Shown here: piece by piece, positions 11,039 to 64,000 of the stretch | Numbering within the stretch: the first letter of the stretch is position 1 | Layout of the letters: each line of letters begins with the position of its first letter | Assembly (NCBI RefSeq): GCF_020009625.1 | Contig: NZ_JAIHLP010000002.1 | Coordinates: 620,001-684,000, forward strand | DNA from: Leifsonia poae | Lineage (GTDB): Bacteria; Actinomycetota; Actinomycetes; Actinomycetales; Microbacteriaceae | Direction of reading: 5' to 3' | Length of the DNA stretch: 64,000 nucleotides | Program-made: the position numbers and the translations under genes | Notes under the pieces: generated by a model | Databases searched by the model: none | Seen by the model: the letters and a program-made list of their open reading frames with translations, nothing else | Told to the model about the DNA's origin: nothing

Positions 11039-11106
11039 GTGCAATAGGCTAATTCGCAACTGTGGGCGGTCATCCGCTCGGAACGCATGTCAGCAAGGTG
11101 AGGCTC

Positions 11107-47425: not shown

Positions 47426-47539
47426 GTGGACTCCTTTGTCGATGCTGTGCTGAGGATGTGACCGGTCACGATGCGGTAGCCGTTCCGGCCGTCGGACCCT
47501 TCCCGGCGCCTTCGCATCGGCGGGATCTCGCGACACTGC

Positions 47540-47577
47540 ATCCTAAGTCACACGCAATACCATTTTCAAATGGTATT
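47540..47577 (-). promoter_or_regulatory. LacI-type operator overlapping the importer promoter
   Basis: A 22-bp palindrome at 47556-47577 has perfect 10-bp arms (AATACCATTT and its complement) around TC, 49 bases upstream of the LacI-family gene. On the minus strand TTGAAA (47564-47569) and TAGGAT (47540-47545) lie 18 bases apart as a plausible promoter for the binding-protein operon, with the -35 box inside the palindrome. Bases 47570-47585 recur exactly, inverted, at 29238-29253. Confidence 0.7.
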
Positions 47578-47625
47578 TTCGCAGCATGCCCGAACGGGTG
47601 GTCAACGGTATGGGAGGATGACGTC

Positions 47626-48624
47626 GTGAGCGCACTGGGAGAGTCCGATCGACCCGTCACCGCGGGCGATGTGGCAACCCGTGCCGGCGTGTCGCGATCG
47701 ACGGTCAGCAACATCCTGAACGGCAACGAAGCACGCTTCTCGGCTCGGACCCGCGAGAAGGTGCACACCGCGGCCCGCGAACTCGACTACCGCCCCTCCC
47801 TCGCAGCGCGGTCCCTGGTCAGCGGAATCAGCGACACAATCGTGATGCTGCTGCCCAACACGACCTTCGGAAGCCGCTTCCAAGACGCCGTCGACCAGGT
47901 CACGATCGACACCCAGCATCTGGGTGCGAATGTCATGGTGCGCTTCGCGGGCGCCTCGCTGGAGAGCTCCATCGCCGCCATCCACGCGCTGCGCCCTCTC
48001 GCGGTGATCGACTTCGCCGGCCTCCCCACGACTGAACGGCTCCGGCTCGAGCAGCGCGGCACCACCGTCCTTCCTCGCCGACACAGCGACGACGGACGGA
48101 ACATCCCTGACGGCGGGATCGCCGAGCTCCAGGCCGGAGCGCTGCTCGAACGCGGCGACCGCACCTTGTGGTTCGCCTCCATCTCCGACAGCAGGCTCGA
48201 CCCGTACGGGCCGGGCCGGTTCGACGCGCTGCGGACCTACTGCGCGCGCGTCGGGCTCGCCGAGCCCCGTCAGATCGACGTCCCGTTCGCCCTCGACGCG
48301 GCAATCGCCGCACTGACGCGTGTTCTCAAGGAGTCCCCCTCACCCGTCGGGCTCGCCTGCTACAACGACGACGTGGCGATCGCCGTCCTTGCCGCCGCGC
48401 GCGAACTGCAGGTCGATGTCCCGGCCCGGCTCGCCGTCGTCGGCGTGGACAACACGGTGATCGGCCAGCTGTGGTCGCCCCGCCTCACCAGCATCGACAC
48501 GGACATCCGCGGATTGATGGATGCGCTGACCCACGAACTCCAGTCGCAGCTGGCGGAGTCGACCCCGCCGCCGGACCTCGGGACGCTACCGCACTTCACC
48601 CTCGTGCGCGGCGGGACCACCTGA
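47626..48624 (+). CDS. LacI-family transcriptional regulator
   Basis: 332-aa repressor. The DNA-binding domain is VTAGDVATRAGVSRSTVSNILNGNEARFSARTREKVHTAARELDYRPSLAARSL, including the YRP-x-x-AR-x-L hinge; the ligand domain contains a periplasmic-binding-protein fold with VGLACYNDDVAIAVLAAARELQVDVPARLAVVGVDNT. GGGAGG lies 8 bases before the GTG at 47626. It is divergent from the ABC operon with a perfect palindrome between, so it is the likely repressor of import and of itself. Its 3' end overlaps the opposing esterase gene by 39 bases. Confidence 0.93.
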   Translation: MSALGESDRPVTAGDVATRAGVSRSTVSNILNGNEARFSARTREKVHTAARELDYRPSLAARSLVSGISDTIVMLLPNTTFGSRFQDAVDQVTIDTQHLGANVMVRFAGASLESSIAAIHALRPLAVIDFAGLPTTERLRLEQRGTTVLPRRHSDDGRNIPDGGIAELQAGALLERGDRTLWFASISDSRLDPYGPGRFDALRTYCARVGLAEPRQIDVPFALDAAIAALTRVLKESPSPVGLACYNDDVAIAVLAAARELQVDVPARLAVVGVDNTVIGQLWSPRLTSIDTDIRGLMDALTHELQSQLAESTPPPDLGTLPHFTLVRGGTT

Positions 48625-49470
48625 GGCACGATCCCGCTCGTCGAGCCACGCGGCCATCGCCTGAATGCCACGGCGGAAGCCGCGGGTGCGCGGCTGGTTC
48701 AAGAAGCCGTGGAGCGTCTTCTCAATGACCACGTAGTCCGCGGCGACCCCGGCCGCGCGCAACTCGTCTGCGAACTGGTCGCCGGAGGCTCGCAGGCTGT
48801 CCCTGTCCGCGTCCATGACCAGCGCGTCCGGAAGGCCGGCCAGAGACTCTCCCGCCGGGAACGCGGTCGCGTACAACGTTTCGTCGCCGACATAGTTGTG
48901 CGTCATCCGCTCGTAGGAGTCGGGGGTGAACGCGATGCGGCCGGCGATTCCCGTGAGCCGCGACGACACGGACCGAGGGAGCGGGGGCAGAGCCGAGTGG
49001 AAGCCGCCGTACGCGAGCGCGAGACCCTCGACCCGGACATCCGCGTCGTCACGGAGCGCGACGGCAGCCGTCACCGCGAGATTCGCCCCAGCACTCGCCC
49101 CGCCGATCAGGACCCGCCGCTCGCCGGAGGCGACGAGGTCGCGCACAGCATCGACGACGTCGTCCCGCCCCGCGGGGAACCGGCCGCCTGAGGGTTCGAG
49201 CGACAGAGGGGCATGGGAGGCGAGCTGGCGCCAGCGCAGCAGCGGGGCCAGGCGGTAGTCGATGGTGCGGACGCGGCGCCCCGTGCCTGCGATAGCTTTC
49301 GCGACGGCGTGCGACTCCTTCTGATCGAGGCCTCCGGACATCCAGCCGCCGCCGTGGATCCACACGAAGGGCGAGGCGCCGGCACGCGGATTCTCGGGGA
49401 GGTAGTCGCGGAGGGGAATCCGGGCTCCCCGTCCAGCGAGCGTCGAGTCCGTAGTGGCGGCCAGCGTCAC
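48586..49470 (-). CDS. Alpha/beta hydrolase, HSL type, divergent from TetR2
   Basis: 294-aa carboxylesterase: oxyanion loop VWIHGGGWMSGG, nucleophile elbow IGGASAGANLAVTAAVAL, acid MDADRDSL, histidine EKTLHGFL. GTG at 49470 has AAGGAG upstream. No signal peptide. It is divergent from TetR2 and shares the 21-bp operator region. It is more distant from the two esterases at 29,351 and 54,631 than those are from each other. The 3' end overlaps LacI tail to tail by 39 bases. Confidence 0.88.
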   Translation of the reverse strand: MTLAATTDSTLAGRGARIPLRDYLPENPRAGASPFVWIHGGGWMSGGLDQKESHAVAKAIAGTGRRVRTIDYRLAPLLRWRQLASHAPLSLEPSGGRFPAGRDDVVDAVRDLVASGERRVLIGGASAGANLAVTAAVALRDDADVRVEGLALAYGGFHSALPPLPRSVSSRLTGIAGRIAFTPDSYERMTHNYVGDETLYATAFPAGESLAGLPDALVMDADRDSLRASGDQFADELRAAGVAADYVVIEKTLHGFLNQPRTRGFRRGIQAMAAWLDERDRASGGPAAHEGEVR

Positions 49471-49492: not shown

Positions 49493-49513
49493 CAAAAACA
49501 GTATCTATTTCTG
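49493..49513. promoter_or_regulatory. TetR2 operator, site 1 (esterase promoter)
   Basis: An imperfect palindrome, 19 of 21 bases identical to the perfect one at 61736-61756; both carry CAGTATCT at the centre. On the minus strand TACTGT at 49498-49503 inside the site is a candidate -10 box for the esterase gene, so binding would block it. It lies 45 bases upstream of the TetR2 ATG. Confidence 0.75.
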
Positions 49514-49519
49514 TTTATC

Positions 49520-49550
49520 TTGGCAGAACGACGGACGGGCGCGATACAGT
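49520..49550 (+). promoter_or_regulatory. Leaderless promoter of TetR2
   Basis: TTGGCA (49520-49525) and TACAGT (49545-49550), 19 bases apart, end 7 bases before the TetR2 ATG. Transcription would begin at or next to the start codon, and no Shine-Dalgarno sequence is present, as expected for a leaderless mRNA. Confidence 0.5.
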
Positions 49551-49557
49551 CGGTAAC

Positions 49558-50166
49558 ATGCCGCGTCGTCCCTACCCCAAAGGGGTTGCGAAGCGCGAGG
49601 AGATCCTCGCCACCGCCCTCGAAGTCATCGCCGCACGTGGGTTCGGCGGAGCCACGCTCCGTGAGCTCGCCGACGCGTCGAACCTGAGCATCACCGGGCT
49701 CGTGCATCACTTCGGTACGAAGGAGCACTTGCTCACCGAGGTGCTGCGGCGACGCGATGAACTCGACGCCGATGCATACGAGGACAGCGCTCCCGAGACG
49801 ATCGCCTCCATGGTCGACCGGCTCACGACGCTGGTCGACCACAACGCGTCCGTTCCCGGTCTCGTCGCGCTCTACTCGAATCTCGCAGCAGACGGGACGG
49901 CCCCCGACCACCCCGCCCACGAGTACTTCAGCGAGCGCATCACCCGCAGCCAGAAGCTCGGTCGCGAGACGCTGGAGGGCCTCCAGGACGCGGGTGAGCT
50001 GCCACGGGAGGTCGACGCCGGCGACCTGGCCCTGCTCGTCACGGCGGCGGTCGATGGCCTGCAGCTGCTCTGGGAGTACGACGACAGCATCGACATGACT
50101 CGCAGCCTGAAGGCTCTCGGCACCCTCCTGGAGCTGGCGAAGGCCGGAGCGACGGCCGCGCGATAG
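49558..50166 (+). CDS. TetR-family regulator (TetR2)
   Basis: 202-aa regulator: MPRRPYPKGVAKREEILATALEVIAARGFGGATLRELADASNLSITGLVHHFGTKEHLL is the helix-turn-helix domain; the ligand domain ends ALLVTAAVDGLQLLWEYDDSIDMTRSLKALG. Divergent from the esterase at 48,586 with a 21-bp operator between, and a matching operator at 61.74 kb in front of the MFS-GH operon, so it probably controls both. Its TAG is back to back with the Gfo/Idh stop (TAGCTA) with no gap. Paralogue of TetR1. Confidence 0.92.
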   Translation: MPRRPYPKGVAKREEILATALEVIAARGFGGATLRELADASNLSITGLVHHFGTKEHLLTEVLRRRDELDADAYEDSAPETIASMVDRLTTLVDHNASVPGLVALYSNLAADGTAPDHPAHEYFSERITRSQKLGRETLEGLQDAGELPREVDAGDLALLVTAAVDGLQLLWEYDDSIDMTRSLKALGTLLELAKAGATAAR

Positions 50167-51147
50167 CTAGCCGAGCTGGCGTCTGATCTCGTCGAGCGAG
50201 TCGAAGACCTCAGCGGCAGCCTCGGTGGTGTGGATGGTGTTCTCCAGCTCTCCCCGCCGGATCGAACCGTTCACGGCACGCAGCATCGGCACATAGCCGT
50301 TGCCCTCCCAGAGCGTCTCGATGGACTCCGTCGGCTCGACGTCCGGGGAGAACGGCGTATGGACGGTCGCCTTCGAGGTCGCCCAGAAGCCCGGGTCGGT
50401 CGCGATCCACCCGGCCGTCCCGCAGATCGAGGCCCCGAGATCGAGGAACTCGACCATCGAGCTCGCGCCCCGCGCGAAGCGCCCGCCCGAATAGCTCAGC
50501 GTGAAGTGCTCGCTGAGGTCGACCCCGTCATCGCGCACGACACCGTCGGCGTGGATGCGGTCCGGGACACCGAAAAGCATGTGCGCGAGTGTCACCGGGT
50601 AGATCCCCTGATCGAGGAGCGTGCTCCCCCGCATCTCCGCCTTCCAGCGACTGGAGCCATCCTGCGGGAACGGCACACCGAACGACGCGTCGATGCTCCG
50701 GACCTCGCCGATGCGCCCCTCACTCAGCAGCTCCTGCAGACGGGTGTAGAGCGGATTGAACTTCATCCACATGGCCTCCATGAGGAATCGCCCCTCGCGG
50801 GCCGCGATGGCGCCGAGTTCTCTGACCTCGGCGGCCGAGAGCCCCATGGGCTTCTCGCACAGCACATGCTTCCCCGCCATCAGCGCCGCTCTCGCGATCT
50901 CGAAGTGCGTCACATGGGGCGAGCCGATATAGACCGCGTCGAGGTCGGCGCCGAGGAGGTCGCGGTAGTCGCCGAAGCGGTGCTCGATTCCGAACTCCTC
51001 GGCGAATTCATCCGCCTTCGCCTGCTCTCGGGACGAAACCGCGACGATCTCGGCCCCGTCGACCAGCTGCAGGTCGGAGGCCATCTGACGTGAGATCGTG
51101 CCCGTCGCGACGATCCCCCAGCGCACGCCCCGCTCGGCCGCGCTCAC
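50167..51147 (-). CDS. Gfo/Idh/MocA-family oxidoreductase
   Basis: 326-aa NAD(P)-dependent sugar or inositol oxidoreductase. N-terminal dinucleotide fold WGIVATGTISRQMASDL, then AVYIGSPHVTHFEIARAALMAGKHVLCEKPMGLSAAE with the EKP lysine, and the C-terminal beta-sheet domain. GTG overlaps the preceding GH3 stop by 4 bases. It is the last gene of the leftward MFS operon. Members of this family oxidise C3 or other hydroxyls of sugars and glycosides; the exact substrate cannot be assigned. Confidence 0.9.
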   Translation of the reverse strand: MSAAERGVRWGIVATGTISRQMASDLQLVDGAEIVAVSSREQAKADEFAEEFGIEHRFGDYRDLLGADLDAVYIGSPHVTHFEIARAALMAGKHVLCEKPMGLSAAEVRELGAIAAREGRFLMEAMWMKFNPLYTRLQELLSEGRIGEVRSIDASFGVPFPQDGSSRWKAEMRGSTLLDQGIYPVTLAHMLFGVPDRIHADGVVRDDGVDLSEHFTLSYSGGRFARGASSMVEFLDLGASICGTAGWIATDPGFWATSKATVHTPFSPDVEPTESIETLWEGNGYVPMLRAVNGSIRRGELENTIHTTEAAAEVFDSLDEIRRQLG

Positions 51148-52880
51148 GCGGAGAACCCCGCGCCGAGACCGAATCCGTGACGGAACAGCGGATCGATCGT
51201 GTCGAACGGCACGTCCGCACGATTCGCGAGCACCGCCTCCATCGACGACGGCAGGTCGAAGGGCAACCGCCCCGACGGCTCGGCCTCGCCGGTGAGGACC
51301 CGGGCGATGGCCTCGTCGGCCGCCCCGAAATTCACGATGGTCGAACTGGCGACGTCGACCAGGTCGGTCAGGATGGCGGGACGGTCGAGGTAGACGTCGA
51401 GGACGACCGGCACCCGCTCGGCGATCGCACGGATGCGCTCGATCGTGCCGACCGGGAAGTCCAATGAACCGGCATGGAAGAACGACTCCCACGTGGTGCC
51501 GTCCCCCCGCTGCTCCCATGGCGCCGCGATCCGTACGATGGCGACGTCCGCCGTGTCGAGGTCGGCGGCCACGAGACCGCGACGCTGCAGAGCGTCGGGA
51601 GACATCCCGTCGAGGAACACCCGCGTGCCCGGCGCGAGCGGAAGGGCGGCCGCCTCCTCACCGGCGCGCAGCAGGGTCACCGCGGCCGCCTGCGCCGCGA
51701 TTCCCGCTTCGCGGGCATCCGGCGTGCCGACGAGCCGGTCGGCCTGTTCGACGTCGACCAACGGCGCATCGAACAATCCGAGACGGAACTTCTCGCGCAG
51801 CAGCCGGAGCACCGACCCGTCCAGGCGCGATTCGGGGATAGCGCCGTCGCGGACCAGCCGTACGAGCGTGCTCGCGGCCGATTCGCCGCCGAACTGGTCG
51901 ACGCCGGCGTCCAGCGCCTTGATCATCCGCTCATCGAAGCTCAGGTCTTCGACGCCCCACGCCATGCCGCTGAGAATCCCCCAGTCGGTGCAGACGATCC
52001 CGTCGAATCCGAGCTGTTCGCGCAGAAGGCCTGTGATGATTCCGCGGTTGAAGCCGAACCCCACTTCTTCCCATTCGGTGCCGAGCGGCATCCCGTAATA
52101 GGGCATGATCTGCGCGACTCCTGCGTCGATGGCCGCGCGGAACGGTTCGAGGTGGAGGTCGAATCGGCCACCCGGGTAGATCTGTTCGCGGCCGTACGCG
52201 AAGTGGGGATCCTCCCCGTCCTTCTGCGGGCCCCCGCCCGGGAAGTGCTTCGCCATCACCGACACCGATTCGGCCCCCACCTCACCGTTCTGCAGCGCCT
52301 CGATGTAGGCGCCGCCCAGCCGGCTGACGATCTCGACGTCCTCACCGAAGGTGCCGCTGGCCCGCGCCCATCGCGGCTCGGTCGCCAGATCGATCTGGGG
52401 ATGCAGCGCGACCCGGATCCCGACCGCCAGGTACTCGCGGCGGACCGTGTCGGCGAACCGGCGGATGAGGTCCTCGCTGCCGACGGCGCCGAAACCGAGC
52501 GACTCCGGCCACTGCGAGAAGGGACCGGCCATCAAGGCGGCGGCAGGGTTGTCGGTGAAGGCGTGGCGCGGGTCGCTCGAGATCGTGATCGGGATGCCCA
52601 GCGGCCGGGCGAGCGCTTCGCGTTGCAGGGCGTTGATCCACTCCGCGGTCTCCCGGGCCGTCGGGCCCTGGAGGATGTTGAAGTGGGTGATGTTCGCACT
52701 GAGCATCTCTCGCAACGAGGCACCGCCGAACATCCCCGGCGCGTCGGGGTCCCCCATTTCGGCCATCGGCTGGAACATCTGGCCGGCCTTGGCCTCCAGA
52801 TCCATCCTGCCGAGCAGGTCGGCGGCACGTGCGTCCGCGCTCTGCGCCGGGTCGCGGTAGAGCAGGCGTTCGATCGTCAT
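51144..52880 (-). CDS. Two-domain GH3 glycosidase
   Basis: 578-aa GH3 enzyme lacking the C-terminal fibronectin-III domain of the other three GH3 proteins here. The barrel has VALHPQIDLATEPRWARASGTFGEDVE and AKHFPGGGPQKDGEDPHFAYG; the nucleophile Asp is in GIVCTDWGIL (about 297); a second alpha/beta domain follows. The KHFPGGG form recalls two-domain bacterial beta-glucosidases. MTIERLLYRDP is the start. Cytoplasmic, in the MFS operon. Confidence 0.9.
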   Translation of the reverse strand: MTIERLLYRDPAQSADARAADLLGRMDLEAKAGQMFQPMAEMGDPDAPGMFGGASLREMLSANITHFNILQGPTARETAEWINALQREALARPLGIPITISSDPRHAFTDNPAAALMAGPFSQWPESLGFGAVGSEDLIRRFADTVRREYLAVGIRVALHPQIDLATEPRWARASGTFGEDVEIVSRLGGAYIEALQNGEVGAESVSVMAKHFPGGGPQKDGEDPHFAYGREQIYPGGRFDLHLEPFRAAIDAGVAQIMPYYGMPLGTEWEEVGFGFNRGIITGLLREQLGFDGIVCTDWGILSGMAWGVEDLSFDERMIKALDAGVDQFGGESAASTLVRLVRDGAIPESRLDGSVLRLLREKFRLGLFDAPLVDVEQADRLVGTPDAREAGIAAQAAAVTLLRAGEEAAALPLAPGTRVFLDGMSPDALQRRGLVAADLDTADVAIVRIAAPWEQRGDGTTWESFFHAGSLDFPVGTIERIRAIAERVPVVLDVYLDRPAILTDLVDVASSTIVNFGAADEAIARVLTGEAEPSGRLPFDLPSSMEAVLANRADVPFDTIDPLFRHGFGLGAGFSA

Positions 52881-52904
52881 GGAGTGGTGTCCTTCGGCTC
52901 GGGG

Positions 52905-54590
52905 TCAGCTGGTGGCGGGTCGGTCGATGATCGGGAGGATGAGTCGGCTGGGGCCCGCGGGCCCGTGCAGCACCCTGTTGCGCGCCACGACGAACTCCGT
53001 CTCGTCCGTGATGCCGCCGCCGGTGTTGGTGTTGCGGTCGAAGCGCGGGTAATTGCTGCTCGAGACCTCCAGCCGGATGCGATGCCCCGGGAGGAAGACG
53101 TTGGACGTCACCGACAGGTCGAGCTGCACCTCGTAGACCTCGCCGGGCGTGAGGAGCTCGGGGGCATCGAGAGCCGACCGGTACCGCATGCGCAGGATGC
53201 CATCGGTGAGGTAGAGCGAGCGCCCGTCCGGGTGAACGTCCACGAGCTTCCCCGTGAAGTCGGTGTCGAACGCCGACGATGTCACGTACGCCCGGAGCGT
53301 CACCTGGCCGGTGACCTCGACGGGATCCGTGAGGACGGGAGTGGTGAAGGTGAGGACGTCCGCCCGCTGCTCCACCGCGGACTGGTCGACCGGGCCGCAG
53401 CCTCCCGTCTCACCGGACAGCAGCATCCGGCCCCCGACCGACGGAACCGGATCGGCCGGGTCGTAGAGGTACTCGCCGCACCCATCCGCGTCCGGCACCG
53501 ACCTCGAAAGAGCGCCGTCGGGCGCGAGGAAGAAGTCGGTGCAGACCGTGTCGGTGAGCGGCCAGCTCTCCTCGTCGCGCCATTCGTCCACACCCATGAC
53601 GAAGATCCGCACCGGAGCGTCGCCGTCGAGCGCGGCGGAGTCACCCCGGAGGTGCCGGTCGAAGAACCGCATGTGCAGCTCCTCGACGCCGCTCGCCGGC
53701 CCTGAGGCCGCGGAGCCGAAGTCGCGTCCGGGGTAGGACCCGGTCTGGCCGAGGTGATCCCACGGTCCGATCACCAGGCGCTGACCCTTCCGGGCCCCGG
53801 GGGTGCCCGCCCCCTCCTTCATCAGCCGATAGGAGTTCACGGTGTCGGTGATGTAGACGTCGAACCAGCCTCCGATGCTCAGCGCGGGGACGGTGACGGC
53901 GGCAGGATCGCCGCTCACCGCGATGCCCTTCCAGTAGTCGTCACGTCCCGTGTGCTCCATCCAGTTCGACCACCACGCGGCCTCGTCGCGCAGGCGCGGA
54001 CGGTCCGACATCGGGAGGCGGTCGACGAGCGCTTCACCTTCGGCGATGACCTCGATGTACTGCTCGAGCGAGGTCAGCCGGGGCGCGACCGAGTTCAGCG
54101 TCGACCACGAGTGCACCAGGTGCCAGGACATCGCGCCGCCTTCGCCGAACCAGGGAGCGAAATAGGGGTCGGTGGATGCGAAGTGCGGTGCGATGGCCGA
54201 CAGGCCCGTTGGTCCGGCGGAGGCCGTCTGCCACTGCGTGACGCCCAGATAGGACGCCCCGTACGAGCCGATGTGCCCGTCGCACCACGGCTGCGCGAGG
54301 ATCCACGCCACCGTGTCCGCTCCGTCGTCGACCTCGCCGACGAACGGCTCGAACGTCTCCCCCTCCGAGCGGAACCGCCCGCGCACGTCCTGCCAGACGA
54401 CGGCGTAGCCCCGCGCGATCAGGTCGGCGTGCCCCGGAAGGAGGGGCGCGTCGGGGAACATGTCCTTGCCGTACGGCAGACGGACGAGGAGCACCGGGGC
54501 CGGTGACGCGTCCGGGATCCAGACGTCAGTGGCGAGACGGACACCGTCCCGCATCGGAACCATGGCGTTGCTGATGGTCGGCTGCGACAC
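52905..54590 (-). CDS. CocE/NonD-family hydrolase (S15 type)
   Basis: 561-aa serine hydrolase of the X-Pro dipeptidyl-peptidase/cocaine-esterase class. VPMRDGVRLATDVWIP opens the fold, VVWQDVRGRFRSEGE follows, and the nucleophile is Ser113 in SYGASYLGVTQW; the acid and histidine are in the region ending LVIGPWDHLGQTGSYPG; a jelly-roll domain (SSAFDTDFTGKLVDVHPDGRSLYLTDGILR) ends the protein. No signal peptide. With the esterases around it, removal of acyl groups from glycosides is the natural guess, but amide or peptide substrates cannot be excluded. Confidence 0.9.
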   Translation of the reverse strand: MSQPTISNAMVPMRDGVRLATDVWIPDASPAPVLLVRLPYGKDMFPDAPLLPGHADLIARGYAVVWQDVRGRFRSEGETFEPFVGEVDDGADTVAWILAQPWCDGHIGSYGASYLGVTQWQTASAGPTGLSAIAPHFASTDPYFAPWFGEGGAMSWHLVHSWSTLNSVAPRLTSLEQYIEVIAEGEALVDRLPMSDRPRLRDEAAWWSNWMEHTGRDDYWKGIAVSGDPAAVTVPALSIGGWFDVYITDTVNSYRLMKEGAGTPGARKGQRLVIGPWDHLGQTGSYPGRDFGSAASGPASGVEELHMRFFDRHLRGDSAALDGDAPVRIFVMGVDEWRDEESWPLTDTVCTDFFLAPDGALSRSVPDADGCGEYLYDPADPVPSVGGRMLLSGETGGCGPVDQSAVEQRADVLTFTTPVLTDPVEVTGQVTLRAYVTSSAFDTDFTGKLVDVHPDGRSLYLTDGILRMRYRSALDAPELLTPGEVYEVQLDLSVTSNVFLPGHRIRLEVSSSNYPRFDRNTNTGGGITDETEFVVARNRVLHGPAGPSRLILPIIDRPATS

Positions 54591-54630
54591 TACTGCCTCC
54601 TAGGGGGTTCGATCGTCGTGGGGTGGATGA

Positions 54631-55620
54631 TCAGGCGAGGTGGCGGCGGAAGAACGCCCGGAACTCGGTCGCGCGTTCGGCATCCTCCGGGCTCATGAAG
54701 TCGAACCCGCCGTGCGGGAGTCCCTCGAACACGTGCAGCTCGGCCTCGACGCCGGAACGACGCAGCTGCCGATGGAATCGCACGGTGTCGGAGAGGAGCC
54801 CGTCCCGCGTCCCCGAGATGAGGACGGTGGGAGGGAATGGCGAGAGGTCTCCGAAGATCGGGGAGAGGGAGGGATTCCGCGGGTCCTCACCTCGGGTGTA
54901 GAACTCCACCAGCGTGCGCGAGTGCTGTCCGATGATCGGGTCCAGCCCGTCGTTGGTGTGCCAGCTGTCGCCGTCGAGCGTCAGGTCGACGGCCGGGGTC
55001 CACAGGCCCAGAGCCGCCGGCATCGGGAGGCCGTCGGCCGCCGCACGCAGAAGCAGCGCCGCCGCGAGGTTCCCGCCCGCCGAGGTTCCGCTGACCGCGA
55101 CGTTCGCCGCACCGGCCTCGCCGATCAGGGAGCGGTAGACGGCGACGCAGTCGTCGAGGGATGCCGGATACCGGTGGCCGGGCAACATGCGGTAGTCGAC
55201 CGCCCAGGTGCGCAGACCGAGACTCGAGGCTTCCAGTGCGGCCGCAAGGCGCGTGAGCTGGCCGCCACCCTGCGTCCACCCGCCGCCGTGGATCACCAGG
55301 ACGACGCGCTGGTCGTCATCGGCGAGGCCGTCCGGGGTGCCGACGAAGACGGGCACACCGTCGACGAGACGCGCGTCCACCTGCGTCCTCGTCGACGCGA
55401 TGTACGTCTCGAGCAGGCCCGATGCGATCAGTTGCTCCTCCTGCGCCCGCTGACCCGCGACGACGCCTTCCCAGGCGTCGTCATCGTCGGCCCGCGGCAG
55501 GATCGTGCGCGGCACCTGGGCCGAGGCGTCGAGCGCGCGCCGGGCGCCCTCGCTGAGCGAACGCGGAACGGGGACGTCGTGCGCGGCGACCCTGAGGGCA
55601 TCCGGAGCAATGTCGGCCAT
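54631..55620 (-). CDS. Alpha/beta hydrolase, HSL type (paralogue of 29,351)
   Basis: 329-aa esterase: VLVIHGGGWTQGGG, nucleophile VSGTSAGGNLAAALLLRA, acid ISGTRDGLLSDTVRFHR, histidine EGLPHGGFD. Closely related to the esterase at 29,351: both share the N-terminal layout, SPxFG-x-x-xxFPPT, GTRD-LLSDTVR and ELHV-EG-PHG. ATG at 55620 has AGGAG upstream. Cytoplasmic, in the MFS operon. Confidence 0.88.
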   Translation of the reverse strand: MADIAPDALRVAAHDVPVPRSLSEGARRALDASAQVPRTILPRADDDDAWEGVVAGQRAQEEQLIASGLLETYIASTRTQVDARLVDGVPVFVGTPDGLADDDQRVVLVIHGGGWTQGGGQLTRLAAALEASSLGLRTWAVDYRMLPGHRYPASLDDCVAVYRSLIGEAGAANVAVSGTSAGGNLAAALLLRAAADGLPMPAALGLWTPAVDLTLDGDSWHTNDGLDPIIGQHSRTLVEFYTRGEDPRNPSLSPIFGDLSPFPPTVLISGTRDGLLSDTVRFHRQLRRSGVEAELHVFEGLPHGGFDFMSPEDAERATEFRAFFRRHLA

Positions 55621-55642
55621 CTCTTCTTCTCCTGTTCGTTCT

Positions 55643-56659
55643 TCAGTCGAAGGTGACGACGACTTTGTCCGTCGCACCGGGTGTTCCCGCCAAGCGGATG
55701 GCGCGCTCGACGGAGTCGAACGGGACCACGTCACTGACGATCAGCGCGTACTTCTCCCAGTTGGCCTCGAGGTCGTCCGCCACCTGGAAGAACTCGTCCG
55801 CGTAGCCCATCGAGGCGACGATCGCGAGCTCCTTCGGGATGAGGGCCTCGAAGTCGACCTCGATCGTCTTGCGGTGGATGGCCACGACCCCCAGCCGCGC
55901 CCCCTGCTTCGCCGAGCGGAGGACGAACTCCACGACCGAAGGGACACCCGCTGCGTCGAGGTAGATGTCGGTGCCGGGCAGCCCCTGCACACCGAAGGCG
56001 TCGGCCCCGGAGCCGTGCAGCTGCACGAGACGCTCAGCCAGATCCTCCTCGGCCGAGTTCACGACGGCGTCCGCGCCGAGCCGCAGCGCCTTCTCGAGCC
56101 GATTCGCCTGCACGTCCACGACGACCACGTTCGCCACGCCCAGCGCCTTGAAGGCGAGCAGGGCGCCGAGCCCGACCGGACCGGCGCCGAACACCACGGC
56201 GGTGTCAGAGGCGCTGGGACGTGTGCGGTTGACGGCGCGACGCGCCACCGACATCGGCTCGACGAGCGCCGCGACGTGGAATGGGATGTGCGGCGGCAGG
56301 ATGCGAAGGTTGCGGCCGACGGCGGCCTCCCGCACCAGCAGGTATTCACTGAGACCGCCCTGTGGGCCGCCCGCGCCGATGATCGCGTCGGGGACCCCCA
56401 TCGGGTTGACGACGACGTGGTCGCCGACGGCGAGTCCGACGACGTCGCCGCCCACCTGCGACACCACGCCTGCCGGCTCGTGCCCGAGACGCGTCTGCAC
56501 AGCACCGGGAACGATGAAACCGGCAGCGAGGCTGTGCGGGTCGGACCCGCAGAGCCCGCACGCCTTCATCGTCACCAGCACGTCCGCAGGACCGACGGCC
56601 GGTGTCTCCACGTCAAGGATGGTCAGCTCATCCGGCCCGGTGATCGTCGCCGCCCGCAT
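55643..56659 (-). CDS. Zinc-dependent dehydrogenase (MDR family) without structural-zinc lobe
   Basis: 338-aa medium-chain dehydrogenase. Catalytic zinc ligands Cys37 (CGLCGSD) and His60-Glu61 (GHEPAGVV) are present, as is the Rossmann motif VFGAGPVGLGALLAFKALG. Where classical members carry four cysteines for a structural zinc (about residues 86-115) this one has VNPMGVPDAIIGAGGPQGGLSEY, no cysteines. Such forms occur in sugar/polyol dehydrogenases (sorbitol/idonate/threonine-like). ATG shares one base with the GH1 stop (TGATG). It may oxidise a sugar hydroxyl or an aglycone alcohol. Confidence 0.85.
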   Translation of the reverse strand: MRAATITGPDELTILDVETPAVGPADVLVTMKACGLCGSDPHSLAAGFIVPGAVQTRLGHEPAGVVSQVGGDVVGLAVGDHVVVNPMGVPDAIIGAGGPQGGLSEYLLVREAAVGRNLRILPPHIPFHVAALVEPMSVARRAVNRTRPSASDTAVVFGAGPVGLGALLAFKALGVANVVVVDVQANRLEKALRLGADAVVNSAEEDLAERLVQLHGSGADAFGVQGLPGTDIYLDAAGVPSVVEFVLRSAKQGARLGVVAIHRKTIEVDFEALIPKELAIVASMGYADEFFQVADDLEANWEKYALIVSDVVPFDSVERAIRLAGTPGATDKVVVTFD

Positions 56660-57888
56660 CAGTGCTCGCCTCCGAACGCACGTGCGCCGCCCTCGACGGT
56701 TCCCGTCTTCGCAACGTTCCCGAGCCAGGCGAGGCTCGGCTTCGGCTGACGCTCGAACGTCTCGCGGTCGACCGCGATCAGGCCGAACGTCGGCTCCCAG
56801 TGACCCCACTCGTAGTTGTCGAGCGCCGACCAGTGCAGGTACCCAGCTACCTCCACGCCGTCATCCATCGCGGACGCCAGGGCATGAAGCGCCTGCGCCG
56901 TGTAGTCGATGCGCCGGGTGTCGTCGGCGGTGGCGATCCCGTTCTCGGTGATCAGCGCGGGAACACCCTCCGTGACCTCCCACGAGTGCCGGACGGCCAT
57001 GCCCAGGGAGTCGGGGCGATAGGCCGTTCCGACCTGGGTGTTCTCCGGGCTCGGCGCGTGCGGCACCGGACCGTTCGCGTCGATCTCCTGCGTGGAGTAT
57101 GCCTGCACGCCGATGAAGCCGTCGCCGCGGGCGGCCTCGAGATAGAGGTCTTCGCGCAGGTAGCGCTCCTCGACCAGCTTCGCCTGATTCTCCGGCTTCG
57201 CGGTCAGCGCCTGGTTCGCGACGGTCCAGCCGACCGCCGCATCCGTCTTCGACCGCAGGATCTCGCGGGCCGCGTGATGCGCGGCCGCGAGCCGTTGGCC
57301 GACCTCGGGGTCGGGAGCGGGGAGCACCATCTGGGTGTCGCCCTCGACCGTCGGGCTCTGCCAATCGCTCGTGCCGGCTTCCGCCAGCTTCATCATGGTG
57401 CCGATCATCGCTAGCATGTTGGGCTCGTTGATGGTGCAGATCCACGGCACGTCGCCCAGGATCGCCGCCGCCTCGCCGACGTAGCTCTGGAACCGCTCGA
57501 TCGACCGGTCGTGCAGCCAGCCTCCCTCGTCCGCGAACCACTTCGGGGTGGAGAAGTGCTGGAGGGTGACGACGGGCGTCAGGCCGAGCCGCTGCGCGGT
57601 CTCGATCATCCGACGATAGTGGGCCAGCTCCGCCTTCGAGAAGTGACCGGGGATGGGTTCGATCCTGGCCCACTCGATTCCGAACCGGTACGCGTTCAGC
57701 CCGGCGTCGGCGAGGAGGCGCATGTCCTCCTCGAACCGGTGGTAGCTGTCGACGGCGTCGCCGCTGAGAGCCATGCCGGGGGTGTGCTGTTCCCGGAACC
57801 ACCAGTCGCTGTTGATGTTGTTGCCCTCGATCTGGTGCGGCGCCGTCGAGGCGCCCCAGAGGAAGCCGTGGGGGAAAGTGCTGCTCAT
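56659..57888 (-). CDS. GH1 beta-glycosidase (second copy)
   Basis: 409-aa GH1 enzyme: FPHGFLWGASTAPHQIEGNNINSDWWFREQ, acid/base glutamate in CTINEPNM (about 150), nucleophile in LITENGIA (about 314), and SALDNYEWGHWEPTFGL near the end. It shares the divergent TINEPN and EGNN features with the copy at 38,525. Four bases separate its ATG from the upstream GH3 stop. No signal peptide. The two GH1 copies sit in different operons and may differ in aglycone preference. Confidence 0.93.
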   Translation of the reverse strand: MSSTFPHGFLWGASTAPHQIEGNNINSDWWFREQHTPGMALSGDAVDSYHRFEEDMRLLADAGLNAYRFGIEWARIEPIPGHFSKAELAHYRRMIETAQRLGLTPVVTLQHFSTPKWFADEGGWLHDRSIERFQSYVGEAAAILGDVPWICTINEPNMLAMIGTMMKLAEAGTSDWQSPTVEGDTQMVLPAPDPEVGQRLAAAHHAAREILRSKTDAAVGWTVANQALTAKPENQAKLVEERYLREDLYLEAARGDGFIGVQAYSTQEIDANGPVPHAPSPENTQVGTAYRPDSLGMAVRHSWEVTEGVPALITENGIATADDTRRIDYTAQALHALASAMDDGVEVAGYLHWSALDNYEWGHWEPTFGLIAVDRETFERQPKPSLAWLGNVAKTGTVEGGARAFGGEH

Positions 57889-57892
57889 CGTT

Positions 57893-60148
57893 CTATCCTT
57901 CGAATCCGTTTGCTGTGTTCGCTCTGCTTAGCACGTCGTCGACCATGCCGGGAGGGACCGCTCCGCCGAGCGAGCCGAGGAAGCGCCCGAACGGCGACGA
58001 GTCGAGGATCGGGGTGTAGTCCACGTCCTCCTCCGAGCCGGCGCTGAACTGGGCGAACATCGCCGCGAACAGGTCGGCGAACGCCGCACCGGCGATCGGG
58101 TCGCGCATGATCTCGCCGAGCGAGGACTCTGCGGTCAGGCGGTACCGGATCGGCTCGGCGTCGACCTCGACTTCGACCGTGCGGCGGATGTCGCGGCTGG
58201 AGGCCGCGGCATGGAAGGCGTAGGTGCCGGGCTCGACGACACGGCGGTGCAGCTCCTCGCTCCAGAACGCCAGCTCGTCCCGCGGGATCGGCACGCTCAC
58301 GTCGGCGCGCTCGCCCGATTCGAGCTCGACGTCCCCGAAGCCGACGAGCCAGCGGGGGGCGCGGGCGACGACGGATCCGTCGAGCGATGCGTAGACCTGC
58401 ACCACCTCGCGACCACGGCGCTCCCCCGTGTTGCGGACCGTCACCTGCGCGACATAGTCGTCCCCGTCCGCGACGACGCTCACCGACTCGTAGTCGAAGC
58501 TCGTGTAAGAGAGGCCGTGACCGAAGGGGAACGTCACGTCGATCTCGCGGGTGTCGTACCAGCGATAGCCGACGAAGATCCCCTCGCCGTACCGCACGTG
58601 CATGCGCTCCCCCGGGAAGCTCGTGAAGGCCGGTACGTCCTGGATGCGCTCCGGCACGGTCTCGGTCAGCCGTCCGGATGGATTGACCACCCCGAACAGC
58701 ACATCCGCGAGTGCACCGCCCGCGGCCTGCCCGAGCAAGGCGCCGTCGACGATTGCCGCGGGTCCTGCCGCGATCGGGGCAAGGCGGACCACGCCGCCGT
58801 GGGACAGCACGACCACGGTTCGGGGCTGCGCGGCGAGGACGGCCTCGAGCAGCGCGAGCTGATCCTCCGGCAGGTCGATGCCAGGACGGTCGGCGCCCTC
58901 CGCCTCCTGATTCTCGAACAGGCCCAGGAACACGACCGAGACGTCGCTCGCCGCTGCCTCCGCCACGGCAGCGGCACGAAGGGCCGCACGATCGGCGTCC
59001 GCGTCCGCGCTGAAGCCGGCCGCGAAGGTCACGGACGCGTCTGCGGCCAGTGCCCGGATCTCGTCGAGCGGGATGTCGACGCGGGTCGGCGTGACGTGGG
59101 AGCTTCCGCCGCCCTGGTAGCGCGGCTTGACGGCGAACTCACCGATGACGGCGATCGCGCCGGACGGCTGGAGCGGCAGGAGGCCCTGATCGTCTCGGAG
59201 CAGCACGATCGCCCGTCCCGCCACCTCGCGGGCGATCGCGTGGTGGTCGTCGGCGCTCCAGACCGTGCCGGGGCGACGCTCGGCTCGTGCCCGACGGGCG
59301 AACCGCTCGAGCCGCCCGGCGTTCCTGCGGACCGCCGACTCCTCGATGTCACCCGACTCGAGGGCGGCCACGACCCGCGCGTCGCTCGTCCCGTCGTCTC
59401 CGGGCATCTGAAGGTCGAGCCCGGCGGTGACCGCCGCGACCCGATCGGCGACCGCCCCCCAGTCCGACATGACGATGCCATCGAAGCCCCAGTCGCCGCG
59501 GAGGACGTCGGTCAGCAACCACTCGTTCTGCGAGGCAAGAATACCGCTGATGCGATTGTAGGAGCACATCACAGTCCACGGCTGCGCGTTGGTGACGATG
59601 CGCTCGAACGGCCGCAGATAGATCTCACGCAGCGCCCGGGCGTCGACGTCGGCACTCACGCGCATCCGGTCCCATTCCTGGTTGTTGACCGCGAAGTGCT
59701 TCAGGGAGGCGCCGACGCCCATGCTCTGCAGGCCCCTCACCCATCCCTCGCCGAGAACTCCCGCGACGAACGGATCCTCCGAGAAGTACTCGAAATTGCG
59801 ACCGCCGCGCGGGTCGCGCTTGATGTTCACGCCGGGGCCGAGGAGGACCTGGATGTCGAGCGCCTGACACTCGCGCCCGAGCGCCTCGCCAACACGGAAG
59901 GCGGATGCCGCATCCCACGTCTGGCTCAGGGCGACCGCGGGCGGGAAGCAGGTGGAGGGGACGCTCCTACCGGACAGCGATAGCTGGTCGGAGCTCTCCT
60001 CCTGCTTGCGGATGCCGTGGGGTCCGTCCGTCATCAGCACGGCCGGGACGTCGCCCACCCGCTTCGTCGTCCAGAAGTCGGCGCCGCTGCCGAGTCGCGC
60101 TTGGTCGGCGAGGCTCAGCTCCGTCGTGTCGGGCAGGGTGTCTGTCAT
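57893..60148 (-). CDS. GH3 beta-glucosidase (three-domain)
   Basis: 751-aa GH3 enzyme: LLGPGVNIKRDPRGGRNFEYFSEDP, SLKHFAVNNQEWDRMRVSADVDARALREIY, nucleophile in GIVMSDWGAVADR (about 227), the sandwich domain, and a C-terminal fibronectin-III domain (GRREVVQVYASLDGSVVARAPRWLVGFGDV), then a short helical tail. Very similar to the GH3 at 61,786 across these motifs, so a tandem duplication flanking the MFS gene. No signal peptide. Enzymes of this type act on beta-glucosides including plant saponins. Confidence 0.93.
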   Translation of the reverse strand: MTDTLPDTTELSLADQARLGSGADFWTTKRVGDVPAVLMTDGPHGIRKQEESSDQLSLSGRSVPSTCFPPAVALSQTWDAASAFRVGEALGRECQALDIQVLLGPGVNIKRDPRGGRNFEYFSEDPFVAGVLGEGWVRGLQSMGVGASLKHFAVNNQEWDRMRVSADVDARALREIYLRPFERIVTNAQPWTVMCSYNRISGILASQNEWLLTDVLRGDWGFDGIVMSDWGAVADRVAAVTAGLDLQMPGDDGTSDARVVAALESGDIEESAVRRNAGRLERFARRARAERRPGTVWSADDHHAIAREVAGRAIVLLRDDQGLLPLQPSGAIAVIGEFAVKPRYQGGGSSHVTPTRVDIPLDEIRALAADASVTFAAGFSADADADRAALRAAAVAEAAASDVSVVFLGLFENQEAEGADRPGIDLPEDQLALLEAVLAAQPRTVVVLSHGGVVRLAPIAAGPAAIVDGALLGQAAGGALADVLFGVVNPSGRLTETVPERIQDVPAFTSFPGERMHVRYGEGIFVGYRWYDTREIDVTFPFGHGLSYTSFDYESVSVVADGDDYVAQVTVRNTGERRGREVVQVYASLDGSVVARAPRWLVGFGDVELESGERADVSVPIPRDELAFWSEELHRRVVEPGTYAFHAAASSRDIRRTVEVEVDAEPIRYRLTAESSLGEIMRDPIAGAAFADLFAAMFAQFSAGSEEDVDYTPILDSSPFGRFLGSLGGAVPPGMVDDVLSRANTANGFEG

Positions 60149-60191
60149 CGGTTTCCTTTGCAGTGTCGAGGTCGAACGGGAGGATCGGGGA

Positions 60192-61652
60192 TCAGCGCAC
60201 GCGCACCGGGAGGATCGTCACCGCGGCGAGGGCGACGAGCACGAGGGCGGCGACCCAGACCACGGCGTATCCACCGCTCAGGGCGACGACGAATCCGGCG
60301 AGTGCCGGACCGAGCGCCTGTCCGAGGTTGGTGGCGAGTCCGGCGACGCCGAGGTCTCGGCCCGCCGCCTTGGCGTCGGGGAGCACATCGATCAGGAGCG
60401 CCTGGTCGACGGGCGTGTAGATGCCGAAGGCGAGTCCAGCTACGACGGCTTGGATGAAGAGGCCGGGGACCGTCGGCGAGATCAGGGGGATCGCCATCGA
60501 CGCCGCCATGAGGAGCGACGACACGAAGACGAAGCTCTTGCGCCGCCGCCAGCGGTCCGAGAGCGCTCCGGCCACCACGATCGCCAGGACCGTCGTCGGG
60601 AGGCCTGCGAGCGCGAGCAGCGGAACGAGCGTGGTCGCCTCCGCCTGGCTGAGAGCTGGCTTCACGTAACTCTGGAGCATGTAGAAGGACAGGGCACCCG
60701 AAACGCCGTACCCGAAGGTCAGCAGGATGCGCGCGATCCAGACCCAGCGGTAATCGCGGCTGCGCAAGGCGTAGGTGAATCCGAGCGCAAACGCTTTCCA
60801 GCTGAAGGGCGGGACCTGCAGCGAGACGGACGAGCGGTCCCTGACCCGGAACACGAAGATCAGCACGATAACCACGACGAGGGCGGCGAAGACGAAGTAG
60901 CTGTTGAGGCCGAGTGTGGCGAAGGCGACGCCCGCGGCCACGCTTCCCAGGATGCCGCCGACGAAGGAGCCCAGACCGCCGATACCCGAGATCGTGCCGC
61001 GACGGGCTTCGGGGATCCGGTCGGCCAGTGTGGCGCCCAAGGGGGCCTGCGCCGCGTTGAGCGCAGCCTGCGCGATCGCCCAGAGGACGACGAGCACTGC
61101 GACGGTCGGCGCGAAGCGCACACCGACCAGGAACGCCGCCCCGATCGCGACGCCGACGAGCATCCACGGAGCGCGGCGCCCCAGGCGCGAGCGTGTGCGA
61201 TCGGAGAACACTCCGATCAGCGGCTGAACGATCATGGTCGCCGCGACGCCGATCGACGTGACGAGAGCGAGCGACTGGGCGCGGCTCGCGTCGAAGGTCG
61301 CCAGGATTCCGAGCAGCCGGCTCTGGTCGGCGGTCGCGGTCGCGGCTCCCGCTGCGATCGCGTCGCGCAGAGCGGTGAGCTGCTGGAGGTCGACGCCGGC
61401 GTCGCGCCCGGTGAAGAACTGCGCCATGGCCAGGAGCTGCACCTGGTTCGGCAGGAGAACCGCGGCCACGCCTCCCCAGATGGCGGTGAATGCCACGAAC
61501 GTGAGCGCGTACCAGACCCCGTAGCGACGCAGAGCCCGACCTCGCAGGTACTGCTCGGACGTTCCCGGCTCGAATGGTTCCAGGACGTCGGGATCGACGG
61601 TCGTCACCGCTGAGGCGCCGCTGAGAGGCAGGTCGGTGGAGGGGGTTGTCAT
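60192..61652 (-). CDS. MFS transporter
   Basis: 486-aa, about twelve membrane helices, first after residue 50. The conserved A-type loop is VFSDRTRSRLGRRAPWML between helices 2 and 3, with its repeat (VAGALSDRWRRRKSFVF) in the second half. A ~50-residue hydrophilic N-terminus and a large loop after helix 1 (ATATADQSRLLGILATFDASRAQ) are unusual. First gene of the nine-gene leftward operon, downstream of the TetR2 operator; probable glycoside or sugar importer. GGAG before the ATG at 61652. Confidence 0.88.
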   Translation of the reverse strand: MTTPSTDLPLSGASAVTTVDPDVLEPFEPGTSEQYLRGRALRRYGVWYALTFVAFTAIWGGVAAVLLPNQVQLLAMAQFFTGRDAGVDLQQLTALRDAIAAGAATATADQSRLLGILATFDASRAQSLALVTSIGVAATMIVQPLIGVFSDRTRSRLGRRAPWMLVGVAIGAAFLVGVRFAPTVAVLVVLWAIAQAALNAAQAPLGATLADRIPEARRGTISGIGGLGSFVGGILGSVAAGVAFATLGLNSYFVFAALVVVIVLIFVFRVRDRSSVSLQVPPFSWKAFALGFTYALRSRDYRWVWIARILLTFGYGVSGALSFYMLQSYVKPALSQAEATTLVPLLALAGLPTTVLAIVVAGALSDRWRRRKSFVFVSSLLMAASMAIPLISPTVPGLFIQAVVAGLAFGIYTPVDQALLIDVLPDAKAAGRDLGVAGLATNLGQALGPALAGFVVALSGGYAVVWVAALVLVALAAVTILPVRVR

Positions 61653-61735
61653 CGGGGCTCCAAAGGCTCTTCATCGAACGGGAGGTCCATGCGGGGAATC
61701 GTGCGTCGGCGCGGATGCTGGGACGCGTCGTTAAA

Positions 61736-61769
61736 CAGAAACAGTATCTGTTTCTGCTTTTTGGTGCAA
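61736..61769 (-). promoter_or_regulatory. TetR2 operator, site 2, overlapping the MFS-operon promoter
   Basis: CAGAAACAG (61736-61744), TAT, then CTGTTTCTG (61748-61756) form a perfect palindrome with 9-bp arms. On the minus strand TTGCAC (61764-61769) and TACTGT (61741-61746) are exactly 17 bases apart, a good sigma-70-type promoter whose -10 box lies inside the palindrome. The site is 84 bases upstream of the MFS start and matches site 1 at 49493 in 19 of 21 positions. Confidence 0.8.
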
Positions 61770-61785: not shown

Positions 61786-64000
61786 TCACGCACCGTTGGC
61801 GCGCTCGAGCAACGGCGCGATCGACGCCGGATCGAAGGACCCTCCGCTGAACCCGCGCAAGCGGTCCAAGGGGATGGCTGCCGCCATCCGCGCGGTGTCG
61901 CCGCCGAGCGCGTCGCTGGTGTCGTCCGCCTGCTCATCACCCCGCCCCTGCCCCATGGCCGCCGCGAACAACGGCCCGGCCAGCGGATGGCTCATGACCT
62001 CGCCGAGCGTCGACTCCATCGACAGCGGAAGGCGCAGCTGGTCGCCATCGACGACGAGGACCTCGGTCAGACGCAGGTCACGACTCGACGCGCCCGCCGA
62101 GACGAGGTACCTCCCCGGCTCCACCTGCCAGCCATCGATCCTCTCGTCCCAGTAGGCGAGATCGTCTCGGCGGATCCGGATCTCCGTGTCGACGGTCTCA
62201 CCGGCCTGCACGGCGACGGAACGGAAGCCCTTGAGCTCGCGTGGCGCACGGCGCATGGCCGACTCCGGCGCGGCCACGTAGAGCTGGACGACCTCACGCC
62301 CCGCCCGGTCCCCGGTGTTGGTGATCCGCACCCGCGCACGGATCCCCTCGGCATCGGTCTCGAGTGCGAGCGTGTCATACCGGAAAGTGGTGTAGCTGAG
62401 ACCGTGACCGAACGGGAAGCCGATCTCGAGCTCACGGGCGTCGTACCAGCGGTAGCCGACGTAGATGCTCTCCCCGTAGAGCACACGCGAATTCTCACCC
62501 GGGAAGTTGAGGTACGAGGGCGCATCCTGGATACGCACGGGCACCGTCTCGCTCAGCCGCCCCGAGGGGTTGACCGCACCGAACAGCACGTCGGCGATCG
62601 CTCCGCCCCCGGCCTGGCCGAGCAGACCGCCGTCGAGGATCCCGGCCGCGTGCTCCGAGACCTCGGCCAGCCGGAGGACGCCGCCGTGGCTCAGCACGAC
62701 GACGGTGCGCGGCTGGGCCGCCGCCACGGCGCGCAGGAGCGCGAGCTGCCGCGCCGGCAGCTCGATGTCGTCGCGGTCGAAGCCCTCGGACTCGTCGGCG
62801 TCGTCCAGCCCGAGGAAGAGCACGGCGACATCGGCCGCGCGTGCGACCGCGACCGCGTCCGCGAGCGATCGCCCCTCATCATCGCCTCTGCTCGCCGGCC
62901 AACCTTCGGCGTACTCGACGCGTCCCGGTGCAGCCGACAGCGCCCGGAGCTCGTCGAGCGGCACCTCGACGCGCGTCGCCCGAACGTGCGAGCTCCCACC
63001 ACCCTGGTAGCGGGGCGTCTGCGCGAAGCGTCCGATTACGGCGATCGACGCTCCCGGCGACAGCGGCAGCACCTCGTCCCGGTTCTGCAGCAGCACGATG
63101 CTCCGCGAGGCCGCCTCCCTGGCCAACGCGTGGTGCTCATCGAAGTCCGCGGCGGCACCGGACGCACCCTCGCTGCGCTCGATCAGTCGCACGACGTTCC
63201 CGGCCGCCGCCTCGAGGGCGTCCGGGTCGAGTTCACCGCAGGCGACAGCCTCGGCGAGCGCGGCGTCCGCCTGGGCGTCCCCACCCGGCATCGTGAGATC
63301 GAGCCCCGCACGTACGGCGGCCACCCGATCGCGCACCGCGCCCCAGTCGCTCACGACGGCGCCGTCGAAACCCCACTCTCCACGCAGCACGTCGGTCAGC
63401 AGCCATCGGTTCTCCGAGGTGTAGACGCCGTTGAGCTTGTTATAGGCGCACATCACCGTCCACGGCTTCGATCCCGTGACGATCCGTTCGAATCCGCGCA
63501 GATAGATCTCGCGGAGCGCTCGCGTGTCGACCTGCGAGTCCGATCGCATGCGGTCGTGCTCGGCGTTGTTCGCGGCGAAGTGCTTCACGGACGCGCCGAT
63601 CCCCTCCCCTTGGATGCCGTCGACCCACGCAGATCCGAGCACCCCCGTCAGGTGGGGGTCTTCGGAGAAGTACTCGAAGTTGCGTCCGCCTCGGGGGTCG
63701 CGTTTGATGTTGACCCCAGGCCCGAGGAGCACACCGACACCGTAGTGGCGCGCCTCTCGACCGAGCGCCGCACCGATCCGCTCAACGAGGTCGGGATCCC
63801 AGCTCTGGGAGAGGCCGGCTGCAGGGGGAAAGCAGGTCGCCGGCTCGCTCGGCGCGATGCCGAGATGGTCGTGCGCGCCCTTCTGCGCCCGGACGCCGTG
63901 TGGGCCGTCGGTGAGGACGATCCCCCTCGGGGATCCGGGGAGGCTCTTGGTCGCCCAGAAGGACGCACCGCTTGTGAGCGCGGCCTTCTCGGTGATGGTC
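61786..64000 (-). CDS. GH3 beta-glucosidase (partial, N-terminus beyond window)
   Basis: The frame is open to the right edge and about 737 residues are visible. From the N-terminal side: SFWATKSLPGSPRGIVLTDGPHGVRAQ, VLLGPGVNIKRDPRGGRNFEYFSEDP, SVKHFAANNAEHDRMRSDSQVDTRALREIY, nucleophile in GAVVSDWGAVRDR, sandwich domain, and C-terminal fibronectin-III (GREVVQLYVAAPESAMRRAPRELKGF). Only about 20 residues are missing. Close paralogue of the GH3 at 57,893. Its 3' end lies just before the MFS operon promoter region, on the same strand. Confidence 0.93.
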   Translation of the reverse strand, partial: TITEKAALTSGASFWATKSLPGSPRGIVLTDGPHGVRAQKGAHDHLGIAPSEPATCFPPAAGLSQSWDPDLVERIGAALGREARHYGVGVLLGPGVNIKRDPRGGRNFEYFSEDPHLTGVLGSAWVDGIQGEGIGASVKHFAANNAEHDRMRSDSQVDTRALREIYLRGFERIVTGSKPWTVMCAYNKLNGVYTSENRWLLTDVLRGEWGFDGAVVSDWGAVRDRVAAVRAGLDLTMPGGDAQADAALAEAVACGELDPDALEAAAGNVVRLIERSEGASGAAADFDEHHALAREAASRSIVLLQNRDEVLPLSPGASIAVIGRFAQTPRYQGGGSSHVRATRVEVPLDELRALSAAPGRVEYAEGWPASRGDDEGRSLADAVAVARAADVAVLFLGLDDADESEGFDRDDIELPARQLALLRAVAAAQPRTVVVLSHGGVLRLAEVSEHAAGILDGGLLGQAGGGAIADVLFGAVNPSGRLSETVPVRIQDAPSYLNFPGENSRVLYGESIYVGYRWYDARELEIGFPFGHGLSYTTFRYDTLALETDAEGIRARVRITNTGDRAGREVVQLYVAAPESAMRRAPRELKGFRSVAVQAGETVDTEIRIRRDDLAYWDERIDGWQVEPGRYLVSAGASSRDLRLTEVLVVDGDQLRLPLSMESTLGEVMSHPLAGPLFAAAMGQGRGDEQADDTSDALGGDTARMAAAIPLDRLRGFSGGSFDPASIAPLLERANGA

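Follow-up and report, generated by a model that had tools for sequence, protein, structure and literature searches.

In TetR proteins generally, residues of the recognition helix touch bases of the DNA. A group of actinobacterial TetR proteins linked to GH3 and MFS genes, with operators of the form AAAACC-N11-GGTTTT, is a grouping made in this analysis; the titles and abstract openings listed in literature searches yielded nothing on this group, on the regulator considered here (TetR2) or on its operator, and named no characterised member. Among described systems, QacR, a TetR-family protein that controls a drug efflux pump, is reported in passages of one paper to bind as two dimers to overlapping palindromes, CTATA-n9-TATAG (PMC6018408).

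TetR2 (202 aa, 49558-50166, + strand) has an N-terminal TetR_N helix-turn-helix domain (PF00440, 44.7 bits against a cut-off of 24). The ScbR model NF041196 and the BetI model match it through the general TetR helix-turn-helix, with 55 bits and 33 bits, far below the respective cut-offs of 150 and 201, and TetR2 is a member of neither. Comparative evidence makes it highly likely that TetR2 is a ligand-released, autoregulated local repressor of a glycoside-catabolism regulon, which would bind two sites, A and B, as a dimer or dimers and switch an esterase gene, an eight-gene operon and itself.

Gene content of the locus

In the window, that is, the whole 64-kb stretch of DNA analysed, tetR2 is divergent from an alpha/beta-hydrolase (esterase) gene with a GTG start (48586-49470, - strand). 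The preliminary description had assigned nine genes to the MFS operon; we count eight, running leftward from 61652 to 50167, all on the - strand. They encode an MFS transporter (MFS_1, MFS_2; 60192-61652), a GH3 glycosidase (57893-60148), a GH1 glycosidase (56659-57888), a zinc-binding dehydrogenase (55643-56659), an alpha/beta-hydrolase (Abhydrolase_3; 54631-55620), a CocE/NonD (S15) family hydrolase (52905-54590), a second GH3 glycosidase (51144-52880) and a GFO/IDH/MocA oxidoreductase (50167-51147), the last being convergent with tetR2 and adjoining its end at 50166. By coordinates the gaps inside this run are at most 43 bp, and we infer a single transcript for the eight genes.

These genes point to import and degradation of a plant glycoside carrying acyl or other decorations, and breakdown of a saponin or steroidal glycoalkaloid was considered as a candidate pathway. 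For the first GH3 protein, exo-alpha-(1->6)-L-arabinopyranosidase was the best-scoring model, but at 796 bits against a cut-off of 1300 the protein is not a member of it.

Other genes of the window include a further GH3 gene on the - strand upstream of the operon (61786-63732), a GH2 gene (39813-42269) and a LacI-type regulator gene near site A (47458-48624). Between the latter and a solute-binding-protein gene lies a dyad that is symmetric at 20 of 22 positions (47556-47577), a candidate LacI operator partly kept in Arthrobacter (L132, 14/22). Another TetR homologue (37%), with the helix SQRGLVHHF, is encoded at 37878-38411.

Two rare palindromes beside the putative regulon genes

Site B, between the end of the upstream GH3 gene and the MFS gene, contains at 61736-61756 the palindrome CAGAAACAGTATCTGTTTCTG, and the sequence bears out that this is a perfect dyad with 9-bp arms (9-3-9), as claimed earlier. 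Some 12 kb away, 41 bp upstream of tetR2, site A holds CAAAAACAGTATCTATTTCTG (49493-49513), which does agree with the first palindrome at 19 of 21 positions. A genome scan with the 21-bp site had been named as a check, the fear being many equal copies in coding regions elsewhere. With up to 3 mismatches, the whole 4.14-Mb genome contains A and B as its only two places (reversed control, 0).

The same search found no match in the other 27 same-genus genomes searched. Among 398 family genomes, 8 match, namely our own and seven others, all of them small (0.7-1.8 Mb), and tblastn with 14 window proteins gave no hit at E 1e-15 in the 3-kb loci around these seven matches (L115-L121). When AAACAG-N9-CTGTTT was searched with at most 1 mismatch, the genome returned, besides A and B, a single place near 3.807 Mb (reversed control, 1 place). 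This additional place is without the TACTGTTT arm and is surrounded by overlapping open frames, and we took it to be chance.

The site precedes orthologous genes in Arthrobacter and Streptomyces

A search of named genomes with TetR2, from which the best 80 of 231 loci were kept, gave as the best of these by E-value a TetR protein of Arthrobacter sp. efr-133-TYG-118 (L005, 65% identity). Its gene is divergent from an operon orthologous to the first five operon genes of the window (MFS 79%, GH3 77%, GH1 81%, ADH 80%, hydrolase 69%), and the gap between TetR and MFS genes holds CAGAAACAGTAACGGTTTCTA, with 3 mismatches to the 21-mer. At up to 3 mismatches the 5.3-Mb Arthrobacter genome has three such sites, which share a 116-kb contig (control, 0). 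The second lies between an orthologue of the GH2 gene of the window (68%) and a GH35-like gene, whose start codon is at 9621 of L131 and for which the Pfam query started 11 codons inside the frame. The third is followed after 97 bp by orthologues of the CocE (76%) and GFO (81%) genes of the window. Hence, where genes of a single window operon are dispersed, each group has a copy of the site to itself.

Before the CocE gene of Arthrobacter, the gap to a divergent esterase-like gene contains, besides the TetR2-type site, a second family-type operator, AAACCGTAACTCATTCGGTAT (9832-9852 of L132, 21.8 bits), with its start 68 bp away from that site. This gap may be used by two TetR paralogues.

Streptomyces sp. 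yr375 has three copies of the TetR clade (L006, L137 and L138). At L138, the TetR gene (74%) is divergent from genes for MFS (73%), GH3 (70%), GH1 (80%) and hydrolase (48%) proteins and is followed by GH2 (58%); the TetR-MFS gap contains the dyad AAACAGTAACGCTTACTGTTT. The L137 TetR gene (73%) faces a partial MFS gene across a gap with the dyad AAACCGTAAGGTTTACTGTTT. This MFS gene (11039-11643) is a broken remnant, matched by tblastn in two pieces, residues 3-44 and 54-203, in different frames; the operator is kept. The L006 copy has neither MFS-type operon genes nor the site; Pfam scans of its frames, mostly without a family, were left unused. At 3 mismatches the 21-mer of the window finds nothing in the Streptomyces genome, the relation of the sites being visible in the N9 register described below.

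Between the GH3 and GH1 genes of L138, 13271-13531 encodes a C-terminal remnant of the window esterase (53% over 87 aa), a hint that the esterase was once part of the MFS operon.

The TetR2 clade is rare, and its footprint therefore rests on three genera. At E <=1e-60, 295 genomes from the genus of the Streptomyces strain included one with the clade (the starting genome, with its three copies), 295 from the family of the Arthrobacter strain included one (again the starting genome) and 396 from the phylum included one (our own genome), each set being a sample of a larger group. The best TetR2 match in the 27 other same-genus genomes reached 2.2e-49. A search with the MFS protein at E <=1e-150 found 5 of 396 order genomes, our own included, and plasmid records gave TetR identities of at most 44% among the matches listed.

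Operator register

Upstream regions of 112 tetR genes, reduced to 95 by removal of near-duplicates, were fitted with a palindromic motif seeded from words of the data themselves, and the fit converged on AAAACC..GGTTTT over 23 bp. The motif was retrained on 90 upstream regions of more distant TetR homologues, with the five members of the TetR2 clade left out. Across the 64-kb window this clade-left-out motif places 49496 first (11.7 bits) and 61739 second (7.1 bits), the third place scoring 5.0 bits. When the promoter region was shuffled 2000 times, the score at 49496 was reached 3 times; for 61739, shuffles of the site B gap did so in 14 of 2000. The left-out sites of L137 and L138 were also recovered (0/2000 and 6/2000 shuffles); the TetR-MFS site of L005 scores weakly (0.5 bits, reached by 236/2000), and upstream of the L006 tetR the motif finds no site (1228/2000).

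Since this motif ranks 49496 and 61739 highest, AAACAG-N9-CTGTTT is the best description of the putative conserved operator; its centre lies 3 bp rightward of the dyad given in the preliminary description, whose palindromes are real and whose register is off by these 3 bp. Candidate operator A then occupies 49496-49516 (AAACAGTATCTATTTCTGTTT), between the esterase gene and tetR2 and overlapping the dyad at 49493-49513, and candidate operator B, placed in register with A, occupies 61739-61759 (AAACAGTATCTGTTTCTGCTT). A second, mirrored AAACAG-N9-CTGTTT dyad at 61733-61753 overlaps operator B, and the perfect 9-3-9 dyad lies midway between the two. A palindromic operator near the regulator's own gene is a trait of the TetR family, and the clade-left-out motif identifies a candidate for it in site A; the best site stands at -62 from tetR2, and those of the three clade relatives with a site fall between -60 and -62.

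Symmetry was compared over 10 arm positions at A, B, the three Arthrobacter sites (Ar1 to Ar3), St138 and St137. The N9 register gives 7, 7, 8, 8, 7, 9 and 8 and the 9-3-9 register 7, 9, 8, 6, 8, 5 and 4, respectively. The N9 register is more even across the seven sites; the 9-3-9 dyad is the more symmetric one at B and Ar3, with equal values for both at A and Ar1.

The predicted operators overlap candidate promoters

A leftward -10 box, TACTGT, had been placed inside both palindromes and is indeed present there in that orientation, at 49498-49503 for the esterase promoter (- strand, CTGCCA 17 bp upstream) and at 61741-61746 for the MFS-GH operon promoter (- strand, TTGCAC 17 bp upstream). A strict E. 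coli-type sigma-70 scan found no promoter. TACTGT agrees with the E. coli TATAAT at 3 of 6 positions, and the element is nevertheless conserved in the relatives. TANNNT is known as an actinobacterial -10.

Read along the strand that encodes the enzyme or transporter, six of the seven sites show TAC(T/G)GT preceded by TTGC at 17 or 18 bp, a recurrent form TTGCNN-N17/18-TAC(T/G)GT to which A is the exception with CTGCCA at 17. A TTGC at this distance precedes 20 of the 296 TAC(T/G)GT occurrences across the loci examined; the sites themselves, and repeats of them, are part of this count. At each of the five sites from the window and Arthrobacter, TAC(T/G)GTTT is read by a single arm, the one directed at the enzyme or transporter gene. 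Both arms read so in the two Streptomyces sites, which therefore give no orientation; there, TTGC occurs on the MFS-facing arm only. With this layout the operator would cover the spacer and the -10.

TetR-family activators exist, and one NCBIfam model is named for the HTH-type activator FasR. Nevertheless, we consider it improbable that TetR2 activates rather than represses, or that it controls its own gene and the esterase only. The candidate -10 and the predicted operator overlap at 7 of 7 sites (counts across the three genera are not independent of descent), which is the position of a repressor, and in Arthrobacter L005 and Streptomyces L138 the gene facing tetR belongs to the MFS operon itself.

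The recognition helix varies with the predicted operator

The recognition helix of TetR2 reads SITGLVHHF, and SITGL(V/L)HHF is found in all five clade members. All five of these have I at residue 45; the other 104 aligned homologues lack it, 88 of them having Q. Sixteen TetR2 matches, itself included, are encoded in the genome and one operator architecture is common to the family, which raises the question of a paralogue binding the sites, alone or additionally. The SITG helix is absent from all 12 paralogues read out of the 15, and the site adjoins TetR2 and its orthologues in two other genera; binding by another paralogue is accordingly given a similarly small chance, and TetR2 is preferred as the regulator.

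Covariation was assessed in 62 of the 95 upstream regions, namely those whose protein was aligned and whose score with the clade-left-out motif was 8 bits or more, together with L005, retained by hand despite its 0.5 bits. P45 occurs with T at half-site position 2 in either arm in 6 of 9 cases, against 6 of 53 for the remainder (Fisher p 9e-4, shared descent ignored). I45 occurs with AG at positions 5-6 in either arm in 4 of 4, against 3 of 58 (Fisher p 6e-5, shared descent likewise ignored). Both p-values are rough because the sequences are related. Across this set the recognition helix varies with the predicted operator, and this covariation, together with the operator family, is the more interesting part of our results.

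Proposed regulatory mechanism

The LacI-type regulator is encoded nearby, and in Arthrobacter the CocE-GFO genes have the gene for its 70% orthologue as a neighbour. The gap that separates its gene from that of the solute-binding protein, however, holds a different dyad, AATACCATTTTCAAATGGTATT, and a homologue is absent by tblastn (E 1e-15) from Streptomyces L137 and L138, which keep the TetR-type site, so that we consider it improbable that it binds A and B. That palindrome B is the intrinsic terminator of the upstream GH3 gene, 26-29 bp past whose end it lies and where a scan flagged a terminator-like hairpin, is very improbable because the flagged hairpin is on the + strand and the gene on the - strand, where just three T follow a stem with 4 G-C of 9 pairs; site A, moreover, lies in a divergent gap.

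A and B are very probably where TetR2 binds. The link between TetR2 and both sites, proposed earlier, gains from the way the site follows orthologous targets across genera, from the clade-left-out motif and from the variation of the helix; what had to be amended are the register and the number of genes. A TetR2 dimer or pair of dimers would bind AAAC(A/C)G-N9-C(T/G)GTTT dyads at A and B, each of them following directly on a -35 of the TTGCNN type (at A, CTGCCA) and extending over the TACTGT -10. Because the dyad covers the -10, bound TetR2 would be expected to block RNA polymerase at the promoters of the esterase gene and of the eight-gene MFS-GH operon. From the position of site A, 41 bp before tetR2, autoregulation would follow. 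A ligand, perhaps a plant glycoside or a breakdown product, would release TetR2. This predicted switch is well supported in silico and of an ordinary bacterial kind. For a set of glycoside-degradation genes retained by three actinobacterial genera in differing arrangements, it names a regulator and an operator that can be tested.

Comparison with known systems

Many upstream regions of loci L005-L084 carry a clear AAAACC-N11-GGTTTT operator.

Proteins of the GH3/MFS-linked group are mostly 41-50% identical to TetR2, and in 59 of the 80 loci (best 80 of 231) a relative of a GH3 or MFS protein of the window is encoded within 3.5 kb of tetR. The operators of this group have the length and symmetry of that predicted for TetR2 and mostly lie about 50-75 bp before tetR; in register and position (-62) TetR2 agrees with them. 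It differs in the helix, which is mostly SQAGLLHYF in the group and SITGLVHHF in TetR2, and in the half-site, mostly AAACC in the group and AAACAG for TetR2, so that AAACAG with I45 takes the place of AAACC with Q45. Judged by these sequences, the TetR2 clade is a sub-group of its own within the GH3/MFS-linked group. For a large TetR group encoded beside glycosidase and transporter genes, the correspondence suggests a simple rule of protein-DNA recognition, which would be usable for regulon prediction.

Like QacR as described in the passages cited above, TetR2 is associated with N9-spaced arms and, at site B, with two mirrored overlapping dyads, a likeness of description for sites known here from sequence alone. 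We tentatively put forward a combined proposal, which as a whole is possible but rather unlikely to hold: TetR2 would belong to an undescribed TetR group that reads its operator mainly via residue 45 (Q-AAACC, P-ATACC, I-AAACAG), and two dimers would occupy the mirrored overlapping N9 dyads at B, giving tighter and more cooperative control of the eight genes than the single dyad of the esterase/tetR2 site.
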